NCBI GenBank assembly: GCA_000442125.1
Contig: KE546972.1
Span: 1,510,022 to 1,574,021, forward strand
Direction of reading: 5' to 3'
Length of the DNA stretch: 64,000 nt
Source: Opeltia flavorubescens
Lineage: Eukaryota > Ascomycota > Lecanoromycetes > Teloschistales > Teloschistaceae
Shown: positions 34,830 through 50,018 of the stretch, in pieces
How the letters are laid out: each line of letters starts with the position of its first letter
Position numbering within the stretch: position 1 is the stretch's first letter
The notes under the pieces: model-generated
What the model saw: the letters and a program-made list of their open reading frames with translations, nothing else
Database searches by the model: none
What the model was told of the DNA's origin: nothing
Made by a program: the position numbers and the translations under genes

Positions 34830-35547
34830 ATGTATATTCTTCTCAATCCTCAGACACTCGATACCCCGGAACCATTGAATATGATCAGTCGTGTAAGCAC
34901 ACTAAGAGGAATGCATGGATGCCTCCATGGCTGAAGTCTGGCGACGGAAGTCTTGTCGTATATCTCCTTTATTCCCACTACAAGGCTCCTTCACCACCCT
35001 CATCGTTTTCTATGTAGTTTGTATCCTCTGCTATGCAACTTTCTTCTTATTGAACCTATATCGTTTTCCTTGATCACAAGAACAGAAGTGGCATTCGTCT
35101 CACGGCACGTCTTCGTTTACAAGTCTCGAGGATCTAAGTCACGTGCACTATCGTCTCATAATGAGGTACATGGAGTTTTATGCTTCCTTGAGAGGCCGAG
35201 CGTTGCTCCTCGATGAACCGGATTGGCTGACAAGGTTGTAGGGTTTGCGATGAAATTCAAGGAAAAGGCTATCTATACTTTTTGTCGCTGATGGAGTGTA
35301 TGTCGAGCTCCAGATGAATGTTGAGCCTCACCGTATAATCCCGAGTCCATTTTCAGATTCTTTAATTATTTTCTATACTACTTGACATTTGGTTAAATTC
35401 TCGGTACAGCAGCCGGCATTTCCTATTTCCGCCCTCAAGCGGGGATCTACAAGCTCTTCCACCATTACCTCATTCTTCCCTTTGAAAAGACTACCGACTT
35501 GGTGCCTCCAAACATGACCTTCCCACAGCACATATATCGACAGAACA
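34830..35547. other. Intergenic, about 720 bases
   Basis: Promoter side of the dehydrogenase gene. No supported gene is seen. Confidence 0.45.
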
Positions 35548-36934
35548 ATGACTACTTCTCCCCCCAAAATTGCCTTTGCCGGCCTCGGCGCAATGGGCTA
35601 CGGCATGGCCTCCCATCTCGTCAAATCCGGCTACCATGTTACTGCATTCGACATCTACCAACCCTCCCTCGACCGCTTCAGCAACGAAAACAAGGCAGCT
35701 TCCGTAGCAAAGACACCCCGTGGAGCCGTCCAAGACGCTGATTTCCTGATCATTATGGTCGCAACCTCCGTGCAAGCGAACCCATTACTTTTTGACCAAG
35801 ACACCGGCGCCGTACAAGCATTGAAGCAAAACGCAACCATCATCATGACCTCCACGGTCGCTCCGGCTTACATCACTGAACTTCAAACTCTCCTCGCTGA
35901 ACAAAACCGTAAAGATGTCAAGCTCATCGATTCCCCCGTCTCCGGCGGTTCTATCCGCGCAGCGGACGGTACGCTCTCCATCTTCGCTTCTGCAAATGAC
36001 CCGCTCTCCTCCTCCGCGCGCGATATTTTGCAGACCATGAGCGCGCCCAAGAAATTATACGAACTCGGCGAATTGGGCAATGGCTCCAAAGCGAAACTCA
36101 TCCATCAAGTTTTCGCAGGCGTGAATATCGCTGCGACAAGTGAAGTTCTGGGGTTGGCGGCGTTGGCGGGGTGGGATACGAAGGCTGCGTATGAGGCGCT
36201 CAAGAATGGGGAGGGAGGTAGTTGGATGTTTGGGCATAGGGGTGGATATATGTTGGATAATAAGGAGGGGGAAAAGGCGCGGTATAGTGCTATTACGATT
36301 ATTGCGAAGGATGTGGTAAGTTCTGTGTGTCTTTCAACTATGCGCGAAAGTTATATTGATGTTGTGCGATCAATTCCAGGCGATCATAACATCAACAGCC
36401 CGTCCCCTAAACCATCCCCTCCCCCTACTCTCAACCGCGGAACAACTCTTCCTCCATGCCCTCTCCGCTGGTTGGGGCCCTGAAGACGACTGCGTGCTTG
36501 TGAGGCTATATATCCCACATTCACCAAACCTCGTTGCTTCCTCTGCCTCATCCCCTTCAACTCAAAACCCCTCCATATCACTAGACTCACTCGCCCACCT
36601 CCTAACAGCAATCCATGTCGCCGCCGCCGCAGAAGCTATGTCCCTTTCCACTCTGTTGCAGCTCCCTGAAAGCACAATCTTCGACATCGTCTCCAACGCA
36701 GCGGGTTCTAGCGCTGCTTTTTCCAACTATTTTGAAGAATTGAGAGAGCAAGGCTGGAGATTAAGGGGTGAGAAGTTGGGGGGAGTGGGGGGGAGATTAG
36801 GAGAGGTCGTTCAGAGCGTCAGAGGGGGAGGAGAGGAGGTAAGGAGGTATCCGCTTTTTCTGGCGGAGAGAGCGCTGGGAGAGTGGATGAGGGATGGCCT
36901 ACAAACTAAAAATGCAGCTGCTGTGAGCTCGTAG
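35548..36934 (+). CDS. L-threonate dehydrogenase-like beta-hydroxyacid dehydrogenase
   Basis: Two exons (35548-36315, 36380-36934) give 440 residues. The NAD-binding Rossmann motif is IAFAGLGAMGYGMASHL at 8-24, with the acidic D35 of TAFDIY favouring NAD. The substrate-binding DSPVSGGSIRAADGTL block and the catalytic Lys region NGSKAKLIHQVFAGVNIA follow, where the residue three after the Lys is His rather than Asn, as in the L-threonate dehydrogenase (LtnD) subgroup. After the intron a second C-terminal helical domain repeats this pattern (HLLTAIHVAAAAEAM and FDIVSNAAGSSAAFSNYF). The likely reaction is oxidation of a C4 sugar acid or a related beta-hydroxyacid; the exact substrate is unproven. 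Confidence 0.82.
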
Positions 36935-38030: not shown

Positions 38031-39717
38031 ATGCAGTCACGTCGATCTATCCCAATGATTTCACTATGGTCCGTGTTCTGCCTTCTTGCCTCCCTCCTGG
38101 TACAAGTCTCGGCATCAACCGTCTCCGTTGGCGCAGCAGCAGTATCGCAGTCACGCAAAGACAGCGGCGCCAACACCTGCGGCGATGCTCAGGAGTTCAA
38201 CTGTGTCAACGACATTTGCGACCAATGCGCTGGAGATGGGGCGTGTCGGAAAGGCGAAGAATCCGAAATCATCGTAGGGACAGGTTGGGGCGCAACAACT
38301 TGCAACCCGGGTGAAAAATGCACCAATACGCCAGGTCATTGCTTGGAGAGTAAATGGTGCGCTGCTGGGCGACACACAACTCCTCCGGCTGATGGAAGCC
38401 TCGGCACTCCAAAGTTTTTCAAATGTGTCGCTGTCGCCGACCCTTTGCCTGCGAATGAAGTTCTTGTGGTTTTCACCAATCATGATTTTACTGGTGAAGC
38501 TTGCTTCATTCCCTCCCCGGGTATTTGGGCTACCCCTGGAGATCAGAAATCGCAAGCTATCAGCGCCGACACGATTGATGGGAACTTTACAGTATGTCGA
38601 AAGGGTGGCCAACCCGACAAGAAGGGCACAGTGGGACCTGCTGATTCCGGCTTTCTTCTGGGGGCTACTGTCCCTGTTGTCGGCGCATCTGTAGCCGGAG
38701 CGATCGGGATACCTGGTCTCTTTGCGGCCGACCCTGCGGCGGTTTCGGCTGCCAATGAGGCAGCGGGTGAAAGCCAGGAAGAAGAAGGAGATGATGACAG
38801 TGATGACGACAATCAGCAACCAAAATGTACAACCGACGACGACGACAACGCTACTGAAGATGGTGAGGATGAACTAGTCTGTCCCTTTACAAGGAGACTG
38901 GTCCGGCGTGCGGCCGCCAAGTCACCTTCTTCAAGGCTTAAGCAAGGTCAGTGAAACATATGGCGGCTCACAAAAACCATGCTGACACGATATATTAGTC
39001 GTGAGCTATTCCACCATTTACAAGAACAAGCCATTCTGGACTGCAGGAGATCCCACAACCGCTGCCTTGAAAGTCTACCAGACTCGAACGGAAGGGACGT
39101 CTGGAAATGAAAATTGTCGCCACAAGGCTGAAATCGACCACATTGTCGAAGCTCAGAGTATCGTGGAATTCTTCAGCGGACCGAACCCGAAACCCAATTT
39201 CATTGATCAGGCGAAATGGGACAGTCTGGTCTCAGCTGTTTTGACGGGTACTCCAAAGGTCACCAACCCACCTCAAGCTGCCACGCCAGGCTTCAATGAG
39301 CTTGGTTTGGCGCTGGGTGCGATTAATAATCTTCAAGCGATAGATGCGAGGGTGAACTCTATGAAAGGGAAGATTATGGCAAAGGTAAGAATTTTCCCAC
39401 CTTTTTCACCAAACCTCCCTCACCATCCTCACTCACATATACAAAAATAGGGCACATGCGACTGGGCCAAAAACGGCTACGGAAGCTGGAAGAAAAGCAC
39501 AGCCGAAGTCCTCAAAGTTTACCTAGGTCAGGTGCAAGATATTGCCCTTCAGAACGCTCAGGATATCGGCTCTGCGGCGGATGATTTTTTGGGGACGAAG
39601 GATCGGGGGATTTGTAGCTCGGCGTTTAAGCAGAGGGTGCAGGAGATTTGGCAGGCGGCTTTGGGCCAGTTGGGGGATAGGCTTAAGGATGGGAGTGTGA
39701 GTTGGAAGGCGGAATGA
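38031..39717 (+). CDS. Secreted Cys-rich protein with HNH-nuclease-like C-terminal domain
   Basis: Three exons (38031-38946, 38999-39384, 39451-39717) give 522 residues. A signal peptide is clear (ISLWSVFCLLASLLVQVSAS). A Cys-rich module with eleven Cys follows to about residue 131, then a Gly/Ala-rich hydrophobic stretch (LLGATVPVVGASVAGAIGIP), a long Asp/Glu run, and a basic cluster TRRLVRRAAAK at about 290-299 that resembles Kex2-type processing sites. The C-terminal domain has AEIDHIVEAQ (D352, H353), INNLQ (N415, N416) and VNSMKGK (N425, K430), the order and spacing of an HNH/His-Me finger nuclease. It ends with GTCDWAKNGYGSWKKST and a helical tail with one Cys. I know no named family. 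A secreted, proteolytically released nuclease-like effector is my inference. Confidence 0.65.
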
Positions 39718-40230: not shown

Positions 40231-42739
40231 TCAACCCTTGCTCACCCCGGGCGTTACTTCCCCTTCCACTTTCCTGCTTTCATCATCTCCCTCCCCCTCT
40301 CCTTCTCCCTCCTCCCCGCCCTCTACGAATCCTTCATCCTCTTCTCCCTCAGCGTGCTCAACATGCTGCCTCGGCCTCGTCGCATCAGGCACCACATCTC
40401 CACCACTCATCTGCCACTCCATCAACTTCGTAAACGCCCCATCTTTCCTATTGCTTAGTTCCGCATACGAGCCCTGCTCCGCTACTTTGCCGTCTGCAGA
40501 AAGCACGATGATGGTGTCGGAGCGCTTTATAGTCGAGAGGCGATGAGCGATGCTGATGGTTGTGTTATTGCCCCTGAGGAGAGCGGCGAGGGCGCTGTTG
40601 ACGAGGGTTTCGGATTCGGCATCGAGGGCGGATGTCGCTGTTGAAGATGTTTAGCGGATAGGTTTCAAGATGATGGGACGGGGTTGATGAAAATAATGGG
40701 GGAAAGGAGGGAGAGGGCAAAGGGGAGTTGGCACGTACCTTCATCCAGGATCAAGATATCCGGGTTCTTGACCAAGGCGCGAGCAATCGCAATTCTCTGT
40801 TTCTGACCACCGGAAAGCTGTGCGCCTCGGGCGCCGACAAAGGTGTTGAGACCGTCCGGGAAGTCTTCGATGAATCTGCAATTTGCCTTCCGAGCTGCAG
40901 CGTTAATCTCTCCCTGTGTGGCGGTGGGTTTCGCGTAAGCGATGTTTTCGGCAATGGTGCCTGAGAAGAGAACTGGTTCTTGAGCCACGATGCCGATTTT
41001 TCTTCGCAGAGACTTGACGTTCATGGTGGAGATGTCGACGCCATCGATCTTGATTGAGCCTTGCGTGGGAGTGTAGAAGCGGAGCATGAGCGATGCGATA
41101 GTGGATTTGCCGCCGCCAGATGGTCCGACAATGGCGACATTTGTTCCTTGGGGGATTTCAAAGTTGAGACCGTTGAAGATGTCTACGGCGGGTCGGGTTG
41201 GGTAGCTGAAGGTAAGGTTTTCGAATCGGATTGGACCTCGAGCAGATTTGACAGGGGTGCCTACGGTTGGTGAGATTGTGGGATTTCGGTCTTGGAGCTC
41301 GAACAATCGACTGGCTGCTCCGACACCTTTCATGAGTTCGGAGTAAAAGCTTGAGAGCCCGAAGATGCTGGAGCCGGCATAGACGGTGTACATGAGGAAG
41401 GAGGAGAGTTCGCCAATGCTGATGGCACCTGATTGCACCATCCCGCCTCCGACATAGAGGACAGCCAGTATAGTCAGATTACCAAGAAGACCAGTCTAGA
41501 ATTATTAGTGAATGTTTCCATAAGCGCTCATGCTCTACTTACAGTACTAAAGAAAGTTGCGCTGATGAAAGCCTCCCGTTTGCCCAGGTTGAATATCTTC
41601 TTAACTTGTTTATTGTACCGAGAAACCTCCAGTATTTCACCAGCAAATGCTTGACTCGTTCTGACATTGCCTAGTCTTTCTTCGGCAATCTTTGTAAGGG
41701 TGCCTAGACTTCTCTGGATCTTGCGGCTGAGATTCCTGATCGCTTTCCCGTAAAAGAAAGCTCCAACACCGATTGCAGGAAGCATGATTGTAAGGATACC
41801 GGTAAGTTTCATGCTCACGAAAGCCATAAGACCAATACCAGCAGCCCCACTGACCAGGGAGCGAAGGCCATCTGACAGGTTTTGGGTGATGCTTTTACCA
41901 ACTATGATTGTATCCGAACTTAAGCGTGATATGAGATCGCCAACACGGTTTGCGTCGAAGAATTCGGCATTCTGAATGAATGTCCGCCGGAAAAGTTGCG
42001 AGCGCAACCGGGCTACAATTCTCTCGCCAACGATACGCAGAATGATTATCCGGCCATAATTCGCGCCAGCGCCAACCGCCAGTATTCCGCCGAGGGCAAC
42101 ATAGAAGGTTGTGAGATCCAGTCCGAACAAGTGATCCGTTCCGGCCTCTGGCTTCGTTGCGACATCCAAAATCTTTCCTATGGAGAATGGCACGGATACT
42201 GAAATGCCAGATGATACAAGCAAGAACAGAAAAGCAACACTCAAGACTTTGGCTTCTGGTCTAGCGATTTTGACAAGTCTCCAAATTTCCCAAAAGCCGG
42301 CATATTGACCCTGTGGTTTGCCCTCTTTTGACAGACGAGCGCTGAGATTCACCTGAGCTGCCTGAGAAGCCTTCTCCGATTTCTCAAACCCTCGCTCTTG
42401 CTCCTGTTCCAAGCCAAGCTCGGCGTCATCATCTTCGCTCGTCTGGGTTGCCTTTGTCTTAGTTGCTGTGGTAGGTGTGTCATGATGTGTTGGAGTCTGG
42501 GAGAAAGCCCGGCTGGATGTCACAGATGGCTTGAAGACAGTATCGTGGAGGAAAGGGCTTTGTAATGTTCGACGATGAGGAGGCGGTTTCTGCGAAGTAA
42601 TTGTAAGGAGGGGGCTGGAGCTGTAAGCTTTGCAAGAAAAGTGTCGTTTGGAATCATTAATTATTGAGCGAGCTGAGCGAGGCAATATGCAAGGTCCTTT
42701 GCGACTGAATTGCTGAGCAAGNAGCTGGGAGCTGCGCAT
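40231..42739 (-). CDS. MDL1: Mitochondrial ABC transporter, Mdl1/ABCB10 type
   Basis: Half-size ABC exporter of the inner mitochondrial membrane; yeast Mdl1 exports peptides made by matrix proteolysis. Three exons: 41543-42739, 40739-41495 and 40231-40637, giving 786 residues. The long N-terminus is basic and Ser/Thr-rich (KRHFSCKAYSSSPLL), a mitochondrial presequence, then a charged linker. The transmembrane domain starts near FWEIWRLVKIARPEAK. The nucleotide-binding domain has Walker A GPSGGGKST at 523-531, the Q-loop in GIVAQEPVLFSGTIAENIAY, the signature LSGGQKQR and Walker B ILILDEATSALD, the last split by an intron after the Glu codon, with SIAHRLSTI as the H-loop. The C-terminal tail is Gly/Glu-rich. 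One codon contains an N (42722). Confidence 0.93.
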
Positions 42740-43076
42740 TGTATAATGTTACCGATCGTCAAGGACATCCATAATGTTCAATGAGCGGCGCAGGCACGAT
42801 CTGTGAAGCTTAATCTGGTCGTGCCAAATCTAAATATCCGAAGCTAGCGATGATCTCGTCATTACCTAATTTGGCGCCGTACTAAATAGATTAGATTCGC
42901 GGCACCGATGGGTGACGTTTAGGGGGTGTGAATATCCTCATGAACTTAAAATAACACCCAAGGGATGGTCCTTCGATTCAAGAGCCCGCACCGTAGCAGT
43001 CATTCAATGTCTAACCAATTTTTCTACAGAAGTATGTTCAAGATAAATACCATATCAAACCCTTTCAAAACACACC
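42740..43076. other. Intergenic, about 340 bases
   Basis: Promoter side of MDL1 and 3' flank of PRD1. Nothing else is seen. Confidence 0.45.
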
Positions 43077-45372
43077 TTACGCAAGGCCCAGTTCCTTATA
43101 AAATGCCTCCGTGCTCGGTTTCCGGCCTAGGAAATCCTCCAAAGTCTGCATCTCGTCCTGACTCCCGCCGCGCTCCAGCACGGTATGTCGGTATCTCCGA
43201 CCTTCTTTACCGTTCATGGGATCTTTGGCGAAGACGGTGTGGAACATGTCTGCGCTGTAGACTTGCGAGCTGTAGTGGGAGGGTGGTTAGTTTATGTGTT
43301 TTTGGGGAGTGGACTTAAACCACTCGGAAGGGGGGAGGCGGATATGTACCTGAGGTAGCCATAATAGCCAGCGTCATAACCGCCGATCAAATGGCCGAAT
43401 GTTGCATGACCGTTACCTATATGAATATCTTAGTAACCAATGATGGAATTTCAAGGGTAATTGGACTTTACGAACCCCATTTATAACCCTCACCCAAATC
43501 CTCCGGTCCATCCAGCCCCGAAATCTCCTTCCTCAACCGATTGTACATGTCCGGGATATCATAGCTCTCCAATTCCTCATGACTCTTCGGTTCGTGAACA
43601 GCCATATCGAACATCCCGAAATGCAGCTGCCGGAGATTAAATAGCGCGTCATTGACATGTTTTGTCTTGACGAGGTTCTCGATCAATTCATCTGGTAACT
43701 TGACTTCAGGCTTGCTCTCCCCTTTTGCTTGCTCTTTCCATGCGGCTTCGTATTCTGGTGATAAGGCAGAGTAATGATGGCTTAGCGCTTTCAGTTGACT
43801 GGGTGTCCAGCACCAGTTTTCGAGCATTTGGCTGGGCGCTTCGACGAAATCTCGGACTGTGTTTGTGCCGTGGAAACGTGAGTAGATTGTCCTGGAGACG
43901 AGGTCGTGGATGCCGTGCCCAAGTTCGTGGAAGAGTGTGACGACTTCGTCGTGCTTGAGCAGACTGGGTTTCTTGGGTGTTGGCTTGGAGAAGTTGCAAA
44001 CTAGAGCAGTGGCCGGATATCTCCGCTTTCCATGCTCGTCAATGTATCCGGGTTGGATGTTGAAGTTTGCTGCATGTCCGTATTTCCCGTCTCGGGGATG
44101 CAAGTCTAGGTAGAGGTAGCCGACGAAGCCACTGCCTTCGTTTTCATCATCCCAAACACTGTAGAGCTTTACATCTGGGTGCCAGATTATGTCATCGCCC
44201 CTGCCTGAAGGAGAGATTGATGATCGATCAGAGTCTTGAATTTCGACGAAGACGAGTCCGAAGAGCTGTTCAAAAATCTCAAGCATTCCGCGTATTGAAG
44301 TCTGCAGAGGAAAGTATTCGGCTAGTTTCTCTTGATCTAGAGAGTAATCCTTCTCCAACATCAATCGATCGTAAAAGCGATTGTCCCAAAGGAAGTAATG
44401 ACCATCAATAATTCTCTGCTCGCCCCGAGCTTTAAGATCCTTCTCCTTAAGCTCGTTGAGCGTCTTCTTCTCCGCCGCTCCTCCTTTAGTCAGGCGTTGT
44501 CGAAGATCACCAAGAAAATCGTCCACCGTCTTTGGGGTTTTAGCCATCTTGTCCTCAATCTTGAACGCTGCATGGTTGGGATAGCCCAACAGTCTAGCAG
44601 CTTCGTCCCGAAGATCGATAGCCTCTCGAAACAATGGTACATTCTGGTTGCACTTATTCTCATTCGCGATGAAGACCTGCTTCCTCGTCTCGATATTCTT
44701 ACAGTACTTCAAGGTAGGGAACAGATCCGGATACTTGAAGCTCATCCTCAGCTTGCCCGCATTCTCGCCTTCACCCTTCTCGAAAGTCGACAGAACATCC
44801 GCTGGTGTACCGTCCAATTCCTCTGGTGTAAACCATAAGCCTCCATTCTCCTCATTCAGATTCTTCTGGAACATGATGCTGATATCGCTTAGCTTCTTCT
44901 TGATGTCCTTGAACCGGTCCCTCTTTTCACCAGCAGGTATTCCCAGCCCATTTCGTACAAAGCCCTTGTGCTCTTTCTCTAGCAACCGCTGGGATTCCGG
45001 CTCTAATTTCTCTTTCTTTTGCAGGGTGGCATCGACGAGGTGGAAGATATCCTCCCGCATTGACGACTCAATGGAGAAGTCGTTGATGAGTTTTTCGGCC
45101 TCGGTGGAAGCATTCCGTAGAGCTTGGTCGGTGGACACGGCTTGGTAGAAGCCAATGATTGGCGCTGATAATCCCATCCTATTCTCATCTTGAGCCATTG
45201 GCAGCAGAACATCCTTGAAAGTAGCGTCACTAGACTTTACATCTGCAACGATCTTGTCCTGAACTCCTCGTGACTTCTCAATCAGGCTTTTGATGTCGTC
45301 TATCACGGACGTAGGGGTGCCCGTGAACATGGGAGGTTCTTGAGGTGGTTTCTTGAAAGCTTGCGGAGCCAT
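43077..45372 (-). CDS. PRD1: Metallopeptidase M3 (thimet oligopeptidase / saccharolysin)
   Basis: Zinc oligopeptidase that degrades short peptides in the cytosol and the mitochondrial intermembrane space. Three exons: 43476-45372, 43350-43416 and 43077-43269, giving 718 residues. The zinc site is HELGH (H482, E483, H486) with E511 in VEAPSQMLENW as third ligand. Substrate-side motifs follow: NGHATFGHLIGGYDAGYYGY and YSADMF, spread over the two short last exons. The ATG at 45372 gives a cytosolic-type N-terminus. However, the frame stays open upstream to about 45550 and encodes SSLLSAFYYKIPPLASRPFK, basic and hydroxylated like a mitochondrial presequence, after an AG at a possible acceptor. 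A second, mitochondrial form is possible. Confidence 0.93.
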
Positions 45373-46007
45373 AGTGGCGGTGGTTAACGGACGAATACCG
45401 GTAGCAGTGGATGTTTTGAAAGGTCTGCTTGCTAGAGGTGGTATTTTGTAGTAAAAGGCGGATAGCAGTGAGGAGAATCGAGTGGTAGGTGCCAGGACGA
45501 GGATGAGAGCTATGAAGAGGAAGAGGCCAAGGAGCAGGAACTTAACCGATCTAGAGACTGCCAGAATGAAGGGAGTCGGGTGTCAATACAAGTAAGGCAG
45601 GGAGCAGGCGAAAAGGTGTAGGTTGTGTTATTTGAGATCGGGAGTCTGATTCTCTAGATGTACATAAACCGGGGCGTTCTACGATTGGTGGGGCTTCGGG
45701 AGCAAGAAGCTAATGACCGATATGGAATACATCTTAGCCTTGGCTCATTCTACCAATCTCAGACCTGATATTCCTTACAGCCTGTCGCTGTCATGCTATT
45801 TTGTCTCTGCTTGCTGATATTCCGCCCCTCGCTTCCTCAACTCAGCGTTGTGCAAACGCAGTTCGCTAACAATAATGATGGATCACTAAGTTCCAGTATG
45901 ATATCTCCACTGTTTTCACCGTTTCAATACAGAAGTAATGCAGCACTTGGATACCATCAATCTCCAAGATGATTCCCCAGTATTTTGATTGGCCGATCCC
46001 AGTAGTT
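45373..46007. other. Upstream region of PRD1
   Basis: About 630 bases. The first about 180 may be coding in an alternative PRD1 first exon; the rest shows nothing. Confidence 0.4.
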
Positions 46008-46422
46008 TCAATTTTCCGAGCTTTGAAAGAACAAAGGGGCTACGGATGTTGTCCTCAAGGTGAGCTTTGCAGCATCCAGTGCTTTTTCAACAACCCTCGG
46101 AAAGATGGTAAAAGCCGGCGAGAAGGAGTATTCGACTTCTAATTGGTGGAAGGTAGTTTGCATCGCCGTGGTAATTGTCCATACGGTGAACCTCGCAGCA
46201 TGCGTTGGGTATGGAGTTGAAGAAGCGTTAGCTATATTCACAATATATGATGTGTAGCCACGAGATTTAAGGTGAGGAGAAGAAGCGGCATTAAGCAACT
46301 CATCCATGAGTCTGAGAGCCAAGGCTATGCCTAGGCACGTCAGTCTGGAGAAACCGAGACGCTCCTCGCCGATGCTTACACTTGGTCGTTATTGCAGGAG
46401 CTGTCTGTGTCATATTGTACAT
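46008..46422 (-). CDS. Small hypothetical protein, 121 residues
   Basis: Two exons, 46380-46422 and 46008-46330, separated by a 49-base intron with a GTAAGC donor, a GACTGACG branch-like site and a CCTAG acceptor. Splicing yields MYNMTQTAPAITTK joined to CIALALRLMDELLNAASS, then TSYIVNIANASSTPYP and FTIFPRVVEKALDAAKLTL. No signal peptide or membrane helix is clear and I do not recognise the family. The frame upstream of the ATG stays open a further 27 codons, so the start is uncertain. It sits at the edge of a gene-poor AT-rich block. Confidence 0.5.
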
Positions 46423-47880
46423 GCGGACTGTGAAATCAGGAGACGGCCACGGATTTTGCTTGGAAACTGTATGCAGTCTACGACGATGTCTTCTATTAGT
46501 CTAGTGGACAACGAAAATGATATGAGGAAGAGAAAGAGAAAGAGAAAGAGAAGAAGAGTAAGACGAACTCTACACAGGAGGATGAGAGATCAAGGCCTAA
46601 TTTCATTCTTTTTTCTGGACTTGAATCATCGCAGGACAAAGAACCAGTCTCATCATTCATGACTCCGGGAAGGAAGGGAGACTTAGCTCATAACTACTTT
46701 CTCGCTGTCAATTCGGCTGTCGGGCCCTAGGGGAATTTCGAGCTTGCCAGACCGTCCTTTCGCGTCTACGACATTCCCTCGATGGAAAAAAGTCGTTTCA
46801 GTGCATGTACAACGAGACCGCCTTCTTCTATGGAGCCCGGATTCTCTTTCAGGGTTAGGAACACCCCGTTATATTTCGACCGGAAATTGCGCCACTTGGT
46901 TTCTTTGCGGGCCCGAGTAACCTTTCCCAATATCCCGTATGTTAAAACGCTTCAGAAAGTTCTGCGGATGGATGCCATTTGAGAGAGTCAACTCCGAAAG
47001 TACTTCGATGTGCCTGATCGAGCTGTAATGCGAGCGAAGGAACCCCGATGGCTCCCTAGGGTTGATTTACTCAATGTCCAGGCCCTGCCGATATATATCA
47101 CAATGAAGATCGAGATATTCATGTGGTTTTCCATATCGAAAGTGATATTGGGGTGAGAGACAAAAGTATTTGATTCTCCGAAAGGGAATCTACGTGTTGA
47201 TGTACTCAGAGTCTAAGTCTGTTTGCCGGGGATAATACAGTTTGGAAGAATGTCATTGGCTGTCGAACGAATATTTTAGTCCGTGAAAATTTCATGTCTG
47301 TGTGGAGATTTCAACGGTTAGAGCAATACGCTTCTTATTAATTCCGTGCCATGATGAAAGCTTCTGTAGGGGGAAGACTCGACGTTGCCACATTAGAGAA
47401 TAAGGTACTTCGAGGAGGGTTTAAGTGGATTACAATTGAGACAAGACTTTCTAGACGAAGCAAACATCATATTGATACAAGAAGGATGGAGAACAGTAAT
47501 TGAAAACAGGGAAACAGACAGACAACAATGTGCCGACAGGAGAAACGCAGGACTGTAGCGCAAAGCTATAGTAATGAAACTTCTGCAGCCCTTGCAATGG
47601 AAACTTCTTGAGACATAGCCGCCAGCTGGATTTAATAAGAAGAGTAGAGAATATCCAGAGGGAAATTATACAGAACAAAACTTGTGTTGAAGAAATGAGA
47701 TACGGCAGGGNAATATTAGTGATGCCCTGGGTTGCAGTAAGATCCTCAAGGCCCATCAGCTTCCGAATGAATTTGTTGTTTTGGGTGATTCTTGGGTTGC
47801 CGTAACTTGTGCAAAGCTGTAATAAGGCTTATCCAAGATCAATATCTGATATTAACCAGCAGTGATAAATGCGTAAAACA
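46423..47880. other. Gene-poor region with purine microsatellite
   Basis: No supported gene. A GAGAAA-type purine repeat lies at about 46524-46558. The rest is unremarkable and moderately AT-rich. Confidence 0.45.
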
Positions 47881-47887
47881 ATTAGAT

Positions 47888-48580
47888 TTATGAGTTAGTG
47901 AAATTTCCGTAGATAAGAACCATACCAACCGCGAAATCATCGATACGGACTTGATAAAGCGGAGTATCTTGCACGCCATCCTTCTTAAGATCCGCATTCA
48001 TATAGAGCGGATAGTGGTCATATTCGCCAAGTGAGTCTGGAAAAGGGAAGACGATCTGGATATCTTCAAGGTCGATAGCTGGTGTCCATTCTTTATAGCG
48101 AAAAGTATCGAACATAATATGACAATTAGCAACGCACGCACAAGGAGTAAAATGCGGGAGTAGAATAAACTGACTTCCGTGCGGTGGTACCAGGTTTACG
48201 TTTTGTATGATATGAACTGCATTCATCATCCAGGCAGAAAAATACATAAGAAGCCTAAAAAAGAGAAGGTTCAGTGATGAGATCGATTTATATTAATGAT
48301 TATTGCCATCATTGATACAACGAGCTTATTTGTAACCTTCTTGAAGCAAGCAACCCTCTTTGCTGTCCATACGTGCCCTTTTCACCGTGATTGATTCCCG
48401 GCATAGGGAGTGAGATGTGTCCCACGCATGATGAGGAACCATGACGCCCTCCATACGGCGAGTTTTACAACGGGGATCACGTACCTGAAGCTTCCTTTTC
48501 CATTTCGACGTCACTGAAAAGTGGGATATGTCTGGTAAATGGGATTGATTGCTTGAGATTATGCGAAAGGTCGATATTAT
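47888..48580 (-). pseudogene. Probable relic or partial gene, fungal HNH-like protein
   Basis: Two protein-like segments lie in order on the minus strand. The upstream one (about 48330-48560) reads KWKRKLQVRDPRCKTRR. The downstream one (47888 to about 48257, after a T-rich run ending in AG) reads VANCHIMFDTFRYKEWTPAI and goes on to PFPDSLGEYDHYPLYMNADL and VRIDDFAVG, where a GTATGG donor with a CACTAAC branch-like site follows. RDxxCxxT and the CHxMFDxFxF pattern resemble the fungal HNH_2 endonuclease family, often found as lone or decayed genes. No clear start, and the last exon was not found. It may be a partial gene or a decayed copy. Confidence 0.35.
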
Positions 48581-48722
48581 CGATGAATCTGACTCTGTGG
48601 TAAAGAAGTTGAAAAATTTCACTGATTGTGACGTTGATGTGTTGATGTGTGTAACACGTCTGATTAATGAGAGTGATGACTTTCCATCACTTATAATGTT
48701 CAGTTGCTCGAGTGAAATTTGT

Positions 48723-49258
48723 GGGTTTAAAATTCTCTGTTGCTGTAATAGGTAGTAGATTTGTAAGATAATTTATAACCGTCAGTACTGGCGATAGTGG
48801 AGTTATAGAATGGGTTATAAGATATAAAGAGAGTCGAAGTATAGAAGTCTACGACTTGAGATGCTGAAAGTAAAAGGACTTGTAGTATAAAAGGGGCAAG
48901 GAGAGATTAACGATATATTATAGATTAAGAAAGCATTCGAGTATATTGTATCCGAATATATACTGGGTAATACTATATATCTGAGTATATGGGTTTAAAA
49001 TTCTCTATTGCTGTGATAGGTAGTAGATTTATAAGATAATTTATAACCGTCAGTACTGGCGATAGTGGAGTTATAGAATAGGTTATAAGATGTGAAGAGA
49101 ATCGAAGTATAGAAGTCTGCAACTTAAGATGCTGAAAGTAAAAGGACTTGTAGTATAAAAAGGGTAAGGAAAGATTAACGATGTATTATAGATCAAGAAA
49201 GCATTCGAGTATATTGTATCCGAATATATACTAGGTAATACCATGTGTCTGAGTATGT
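48723..49258. repeat. Two-copy tandem repeat, 268-bp unit, transition-only divergence
   Basis: Copy one is 48723-48990 and copy two 48991-49258. They align without gaps. By hand I count 20 differences, every one a transition; 16 fall where one copy has TpA and the other CpA or TpG, the context attacked by repeat-induced point mutation (RIP). The unit is AT-rich and has no coding content I can see. Confidence 0.9.
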
Positions 49259-50018
49259 GGTGTATGACATGAGATGGAGGCGGGATAGAGACAAGTGACA
49301 AGAGAGATGAGACGCTTGAATAGTTATTGCCCACCCACTAAGCAAACCATTCACTTCAATGAAGATACATACTTCACATGAGATGAATGCCTAAACTTTA
49401 GAATGGAGCTCAGAATAACTTCATCCATTGAACCAATGAAGCTACAAAACACACCCTTCACCCAACAATAATCTCTCATCATTTAACACACTACCCAAAT
49501 TTACTCTATCCCCAAGGGGCGCGTGATTCTTGTGAATTTTTTCTCTCTCTTCCTATCAAAATCTGAACATCCTGATTTGTGTTGTTGTTGCGCCCAATTT
49601 CTATCCAAGAGCAACCTACAGCTGGGAAAACAAAGGTTTTCTTTCCTCCTGCATGCAAAACAAGGGCAAAAAACAAAGAAAAAAAAAACAATAGGTAATC
49701 CTGAAAAAAAAGCTCCCACCCATGATGCTAGACTCCTGTTGATGCTGCTGCTGCTGCTGTCGTGAAACGAAAAAAATCAACTCCGAGTGTGCTCATGATG
49801 CAGAAAACGCCATCGTAGGAATTGGAGAGTACTGCGGTCTTTGCGCCATCGCGGTCTCCGAAGATCAGTCCTGACCCTGTTGCATCGCCCGTTGTCCGCT
49901 TCCTGATACCAAAAAAGCAATAGACCGAGGTGTTGGGCGATAAGGAATGGAGTGGGGTGAGTTATAGGAAATGTGAATGCCACTGCATCGGCCCGGTGGT
50001 ATCATGACACGTTCGAAT
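49259..50018. other. Intergenic, 3' side of flbA
   Basis: About 760 bases with A-rich runs near 49674-49715 and a CTG trinucleotide run near 49741-49760. No gene is seen. Confidence 0.45.

Follow-up and report, generated by a model that had tools for sequence, protein, structure and literature searches.

We analysed a window of 64,000 nucleotides from Opeltia flavorubescens (contig C8, positions 1510022–1574021, of a 34.4-Mb genome comprising 23 contigs). One gene in this window encodes a predicted secreted protein of 522 residues, in which a cysteine-rich head is joined through a linker with dibasic sites to a tail resembling HNH nucleases at motif level. Its features, in window positions, are as follows.

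38031..38946, + strand: exon 1, with signal peptide, head, linker and dibasic sites; ends in phase 1
38031..38114, + strand: predicted signal peptide, residues 1–28, with a hydrophobic core; cleavage point placed by eye
38115..38615, + strand: cysteine-rich head, residues 29–195, 12 cysteines; possibly like a betagamma-crystallin, as suggested by a weak structural match, a motif and concerted cysteine changes
38472..38495, + strand: Greek-key signature FTNHDFTG ([FYW]x4[FYC]xG), residues 148–155
38649..38729, + strand: hydrophobic Gly/Ala-rich stretch, residues 207–233; clade-specific, best 19-residue Kyte-Doolittle mean 1.89
38769..38873, + strand: acidic run, residues 247–281; clade-specific
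38892..38909, + strand: RRLVRR, two dibasic Kex2-like sites (RR 288–289 and 292–293)
38947..38998, + strand: intron 1, GT-AG, phase 1, at the head/tail boundary
38999..39384, + strand: exon 2, HNH-like part of the tail, residues 306 (part) to 434
39136..39150, + strand: DHIVE, residues 352–356
39325..39366, + strand: NNLQ...VNSMK, residues 415–428 (N416, N425, K428)
39385..39450, + strand: intron 2, GT-AG
39451..39717, + strand: exon 3, C-terminal helical region, residues 435–522, and stop; helices in both structure models
38031..39717, + strand: whole gene, ATG to stop, three exons; orthologues P0002 and P0003

An earlier note on this DNA had singled out the gene, and its observation was confirmed. 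The gene model was intact, with an ATG at 38031, three exons, two GT-AG introns and 523 codons including the stop. The gene is real and not a chance reading frame, since exon 1 was 84% and 75% identical to predictions from two other species, Letrouitia leprolyta (P0002, 521 residues) and Teloschistes flavicans (P0003, 511 residues). These predictions also crossed both exon joins colinearly, upholding the coordinates and splicing proposed before. The signal-peptide-like start that had been described was present as well: the Kyte-Doolittle mean over 19 residues was 2.09 from residue 6, and residues 10–24 formed a helix in the orthologue model. This call was based on hydrophobicity and the model helix rather than on a signal-peptide program.

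A search with exon 1 returned four proteins: P0002, P0003, P0004 (74% identity) and P0001, a prediction of 402 residues identical to the window protein across exon 1. A search led by P0002, with scoring confined to the 7996 candidates that had the most words in common, added the fragment P0005. Paralogue heads retrieved 26 proteins at E-values of at most 1e-3; 22 had not been found before, which extended the family to P0001–P0027. Since these searches reach only relatives sharing short exact words, absence of the family elsewhere cannot be claimed. Eight members were named, from L. leprolyta (two), T. flavicans, Flavoplaca austrocitrina, Polycauliona sp., cf. Caloplaca sp., Xanthomendoza sp. 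and Caeruleum heppii. Letrouitia was looked up as Teloschistales and Caeruleum as leotiomyceta incertae sedis; the placement of Teloschistes, Flavoplaca, Polycauliona, Caloplaca and Xanthomendoza was presumed, and we take the seven named organisms to be lichen fungi by habit. No credible match to the family was found in Pfam, NCBIfam or PHROGs, so that, as far as tested, the absence of a named family held, and the family is apparently undescribed.

The genome of O. flavorubescens itself contained three copies, namely the window gene and two paralogues with tails, L003 on contig C1 and L004 on contig C5. Their first intron was also in phase 1 and directly followed an LR motif, as that of the window gene follows an LK motif between linker and tail. 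Four checked exon stretches of L003 were contained letter for letter in P0006. In a tree of 22 heads, a long branch supported at 100/100 separated the window type (P0001–P0004) from the rest; of the 19 inner branches of this tree, 13 were open, and the incomplete heads of P0005, P0016, P0020, P0022, P0026 and P0027 were left out. Ten members (P0008, P0012–P0015, P0017–P0019, P0021 and P0023) had 275–301 residues and stopped soon after the LR boundary motif. Because the ends fall soon after 'LRxG', most database members of 275–314 residues appear to be first exons whose translation ran on into intron 1, not proteins that naturally consist of the head, and these ten were ascribed to an intron-blind gene caller. 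In P0024 (272 residues), a Ser/Thr-rich stretch followed the head in place of the usual linker. The head may therefore also occur in a second architecture, as judged from this protein, which is possibly cut since its contig has only 1478 bases. L003 (C1:2778271–2781816) lay about 20 kb and L004 (C5:42131–45664) about 43 kb from the end of its contig, with CCCTAA telomere repeats at the C5 end near L004 and none at the C1 end near L003.

All residues of the DH...NN...N..K pattern noted previously were present in the tail (D352, H353, N416, N425 and K428), and the pattern withstood comparison with homologues. DHxxE occurred in 11/11 distinct tails reaching this region (window, P0002, P0003, P0006, L004, P0010, P0011, P0016, P0020, P0022 and P0025), with D54, H55 and E58 of the tail alignment invariant. 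The second region, NL[RQ][GA]xxxR[IV]N[ST][LM]K, was found in ten of eleven distinct tails, this set including P0009 instead of P0011. The tail of P0001 duplicates that of the window but ends short of the second region. P0011 had DHIVE and no recognisable second region, P0009 the second region and no DH region; these gaps are probably faults of the gene models, and scoring them as misses gave 11/12 for DHxxE and 10/12 for the second region. Window-type tails were only 18–24% identical to the others. At motif level, the tail carries the residue set of HNH/His-Me finger nucleases, a DH pair, a downstream N and another N nine residues on. The N-x8-[NH] spacing was the same in the nuclease CAD (1v0d) and in HK97 gp74, a Pfam HNH member, while the spacing of the K differed. 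The signature is unlikely to be due to chance, since no HNH-type signature, as written after the sequences had been seen, occurred when the P0002 tail was shuffled 200,000 times.

Structures were predicted for the whole proteins of the paralogue P0006 and of a window-type orthologue, the latter model being poor. In the P0006 model, D335-H336 ended a strand (332–336), N401 preceded a second strand (402–406), and N410 and K413 lay in a helix (409–420). In blocks, the predicted local distance difference test (pLDDT) was 77 around DH, 69 at 401–410, 54 at 411–420, 46–53 at 421–440 and 75–85 in the C-terminal helices. As modelled, this strand-strand-helix arrangement would be the one required of a beta-beta-alpha-metal core.

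Several results weighed against an HNH fold of the tail. No HNH nuclease chain was returned by Foldseek, VIA-align or BFVD, nor an HNH family by Pfam for the family proteins at E-values up to 10. In hhalign, the score against the single CAD sequence was reached by 3 of 200 shuffles with only five residues aligned, and that against the single gp74 sequence was unconvincing. The loop from H to N had 63 residues in the family versus 36 in CAD and 30 in gp74. Finally, P0025 from C. heppii keeps DHVVE, and its second region reads ATRGVWGRLDSLK, without the N residues. The HNH-like tail of the earlier note was thus supported by the conserved residues, while the structural evidence pointed both ways, with a fitting arrangement of strands and helix in the P0006 model and no HNH match in the structure searches. 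On balance, we lean towards an HNH fold; whether the tail would also be an active nuclease is an even call.

The tail was compared with two clades of polymorphic-toxin nucleases. As described in parts of Zhang et al. 2012 (PMC3482391), DHxxE marks the Tox-HNH-CIDE clade (CAD/DFF40, SphI-like HNH), whereas Tox-DHNNK has the residues DH, N, N, N and K and is listed in ascomycetes and basidiomycetes. The family shares DHxxE and the spacing of the 1v0d segment with the former, but has the longer loop, N rather than H at the last position and no significant profile match, and its tail is fused to a predicted secreted cysteine-rich head. With Tox-DHNNK, compared by description only, it shares the DH, N, N, K set and the occurrence in ascomycetes, although the third N could not be assigned and the E of DHxxE is outside the motif list of that clade. 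Possibly, the family is a fungal offshoot of this superfamily that has diverged strongly and become joined to a predicted secreted, crystallin-like head.

Absent from the earlier note is the possibility that a betagamma-crystallin domain makes up the head. Betagamma-crystallins carry the signature [FYW]x4[FY]xG in each of two Greek keys. A single signature was found in 26/27 family proteins, in which members outside the window clade have C in place of the inner F, and a second one was not seen in the family proteins. Structural matches, weak and of low Z, were to a domain of the Neurospora crassa abundant perithecial protein (5z6e) and to 1hdf, which we take to be spherulin 3a. Compared with these proteins, the family head has a large cysteine-rich insertion, and a nuclease-like tail is attached. 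Eleven cysteines at 50–158 had been described before and were present, but C189 is conserved with them, making 12; with C266 and C284 in the linker and three in the tail, the total of window-type proteins is odd. L004 and P0010 had 13 cysteines ahead of the boundary and a single tail cysteine, P0007 joined to the tail of P0016 would have the same, and P0006 has one more. Speculatively, these counts suggest that a disulphide may link head and tail in some paralogue-type proteins.

In an explanation without enzymatic activity, the head would be akin to fungal betagamma-crystallins such as the perithecial protein, the product would be a structural or fruiting-body protein, and DHxxE and N, N and K would be structural or bind a metal. 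However, in a tail that diverges widely, these polar residues are among the most constant positions, a point in favour of an active site, and we consider a structural role quite unlikely.

The linker differed within the family. The Gly/Ala-rich hydrophobic stretch and the acidic run, reported earlier as parts of the architecture, were present but confined to the orthologue group P0001–P0005 and not found in paralogue-type proteins; linkers outside the window clade were different and mostly contained proline. The hydrophobic spacer is thus outside the common family architecture. In contrast, the basic cleavage-like cluster of the earlier note proved more general. Of the 25 members reaching the boundary (P0024 and P0026 left out; near-duplicate rows P0005/P0002 and P0016/P0007 included), 20 had a dibasic pair among the 50 residues that precede it. 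In 2000 rounds of shuffling these 50 residues, the mean was 9.2 and the maximum 16, never 20, an excess that does not translate into a probability because the rows are related and some are near-duplicates. P0008, P0009, P0010, P0013 and P0022 had no dibasic pair before the boundary, and neither had L004. The conservation of the pair supports a Kex2 cleavage-like site.

The hydrophobic start and the dibasic site between two domains are, in sequence terms, those of a Kex2-processed AB-type toxin. Yeast AB-type killer toxins such as K28 are made as secreted precursors, in which a dibasic cut separates the part for binding or entry from the effector. The family resembles them in the predicted secreted precursor and the dibasic site between two parts, and differs from them in being chromosomal and spliced, with an HNH-like rather than a tRNase-type effector. 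No sequence relation to these toxins was found, though no search was aimed at one. Within the portion of the literature consulted, the gamma-toxin of Kluyveromyces lactis and PaT are described as having a nuclease effector, to which the nuclease-like tail corresponds. At least 13 polymorphic-toxin domains are stated to have reached fungi in parts of Zhang et al. 2012, with fungal killer toxins as the nearest eukaryotic counterparts (PMC3482391).

We hypothesize, tentatively and somewhat short of an even chance, that the gene encodes a secreted, proteolytically matured two-domain protein with a nuclease tail, used in antagonism within the thallus. The signal peptide would direct the protein into the secretory path, the disulphide-rich betagamma-crystallin-like head would fold outside the cytosol, and Kex2 would cut the dibasic sites just before the domain boundary. 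The tail would be a metal-dependent HNH/His-Me finger nuclease, with DHxxE followed by N and N..K on the strand and helix that come after it. The head might bind the target cell or aid entry, and the tail, freed or held by a disulphide, might cut nucleic acid as in AB-type killer toxins; the likeliest use would be against other cells living in the lichen thallus. The modular secreted effector of the earlier note was partly supported: it is in keeping with the architecture, the cleavage-like site and the motif conservation, whereas its spacer was clade-specific and the fold searches returned no HNH match. A fuller version we regard as doubtful, namely that these are chromosomal bipartite nuclease toxins of lichen fungi, with a crystallin delivery head and a CIDE- or DHNNK-like HNH tail, cut by Kex2 before an intron-marked boundary, possibly held by a disulphide as far as the target cell, and policing the microbial community or the partner.

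The product might be a weapon or a signal inside the lichen. As a symbiosis effector, it would be secreted toward the algal partner, and the tail would act in the algal cell on regulation or growth rather than kill competitors. The presumed lichen habit of all seven named organisms agrees with this. Parts of a study of Cladonia grayi report that small secreted proteins were up in coculture with the alga, and table a KP4 killer-toxin-like gene with a value of 150, read as fold induction (PMC6652019). Nevertheless, a nuclease tail would suit a lasting partner poorly unless tightly controlled, and among the named matches of a search limited to short-word sharers, the family was confined to Teloschistales-type species and Caeruleum. 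A symbiosis effector is, in our view, unlikely. An extracellular nuclease whose substrates are free DNA or biofilm outside cells, and whose head lends stability or binds the wall, would fit the signal-peptide-like start, the paired cysteines and the nuclease-like tail. Most secreted nucleases that scavenge are members of broad families, and this family matched none; moreover, a cleavage-like site at the domain boundary would be superfluous, making this alternative distinctly improbable.

Should the proposed secreted nuclease be borne out, lichen fungi would have their own family of nuclease weapons or effectors that can be cleaved, and there would be a concrete candidate protein through which the mycobiont controls bacteria, yeasts and algae in the thallus. 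A crystallin-like head would join AB-type toxin designs as a delivery or binding part, and the HNH signature DHxxE of the animal apoptotic nuclease CAD would extend to secreted fungal proteins.

The gene had been described as standing alone. No partner gene was recognised beside it among the 10 of the 39 long frames of the window that were scanned, short frames lying outside the scan, but two paralogues exist elsewhere in the genome. The flanking genes look ordinary: hydroxyisobutyrate-dehydrogenase-type domains were found upstream (35518–36931), and downstream, the opposite strand carries two frames with ABC transporter domains as well as an M3 peptidase (40668–45582). Further on, no open frame of at least 170 residues occurred between 45.6 and 50.4 kb of the window, and the G+C content at 46001–50000 fell to 0.44 and 0.40 in two 2-kb blocks.
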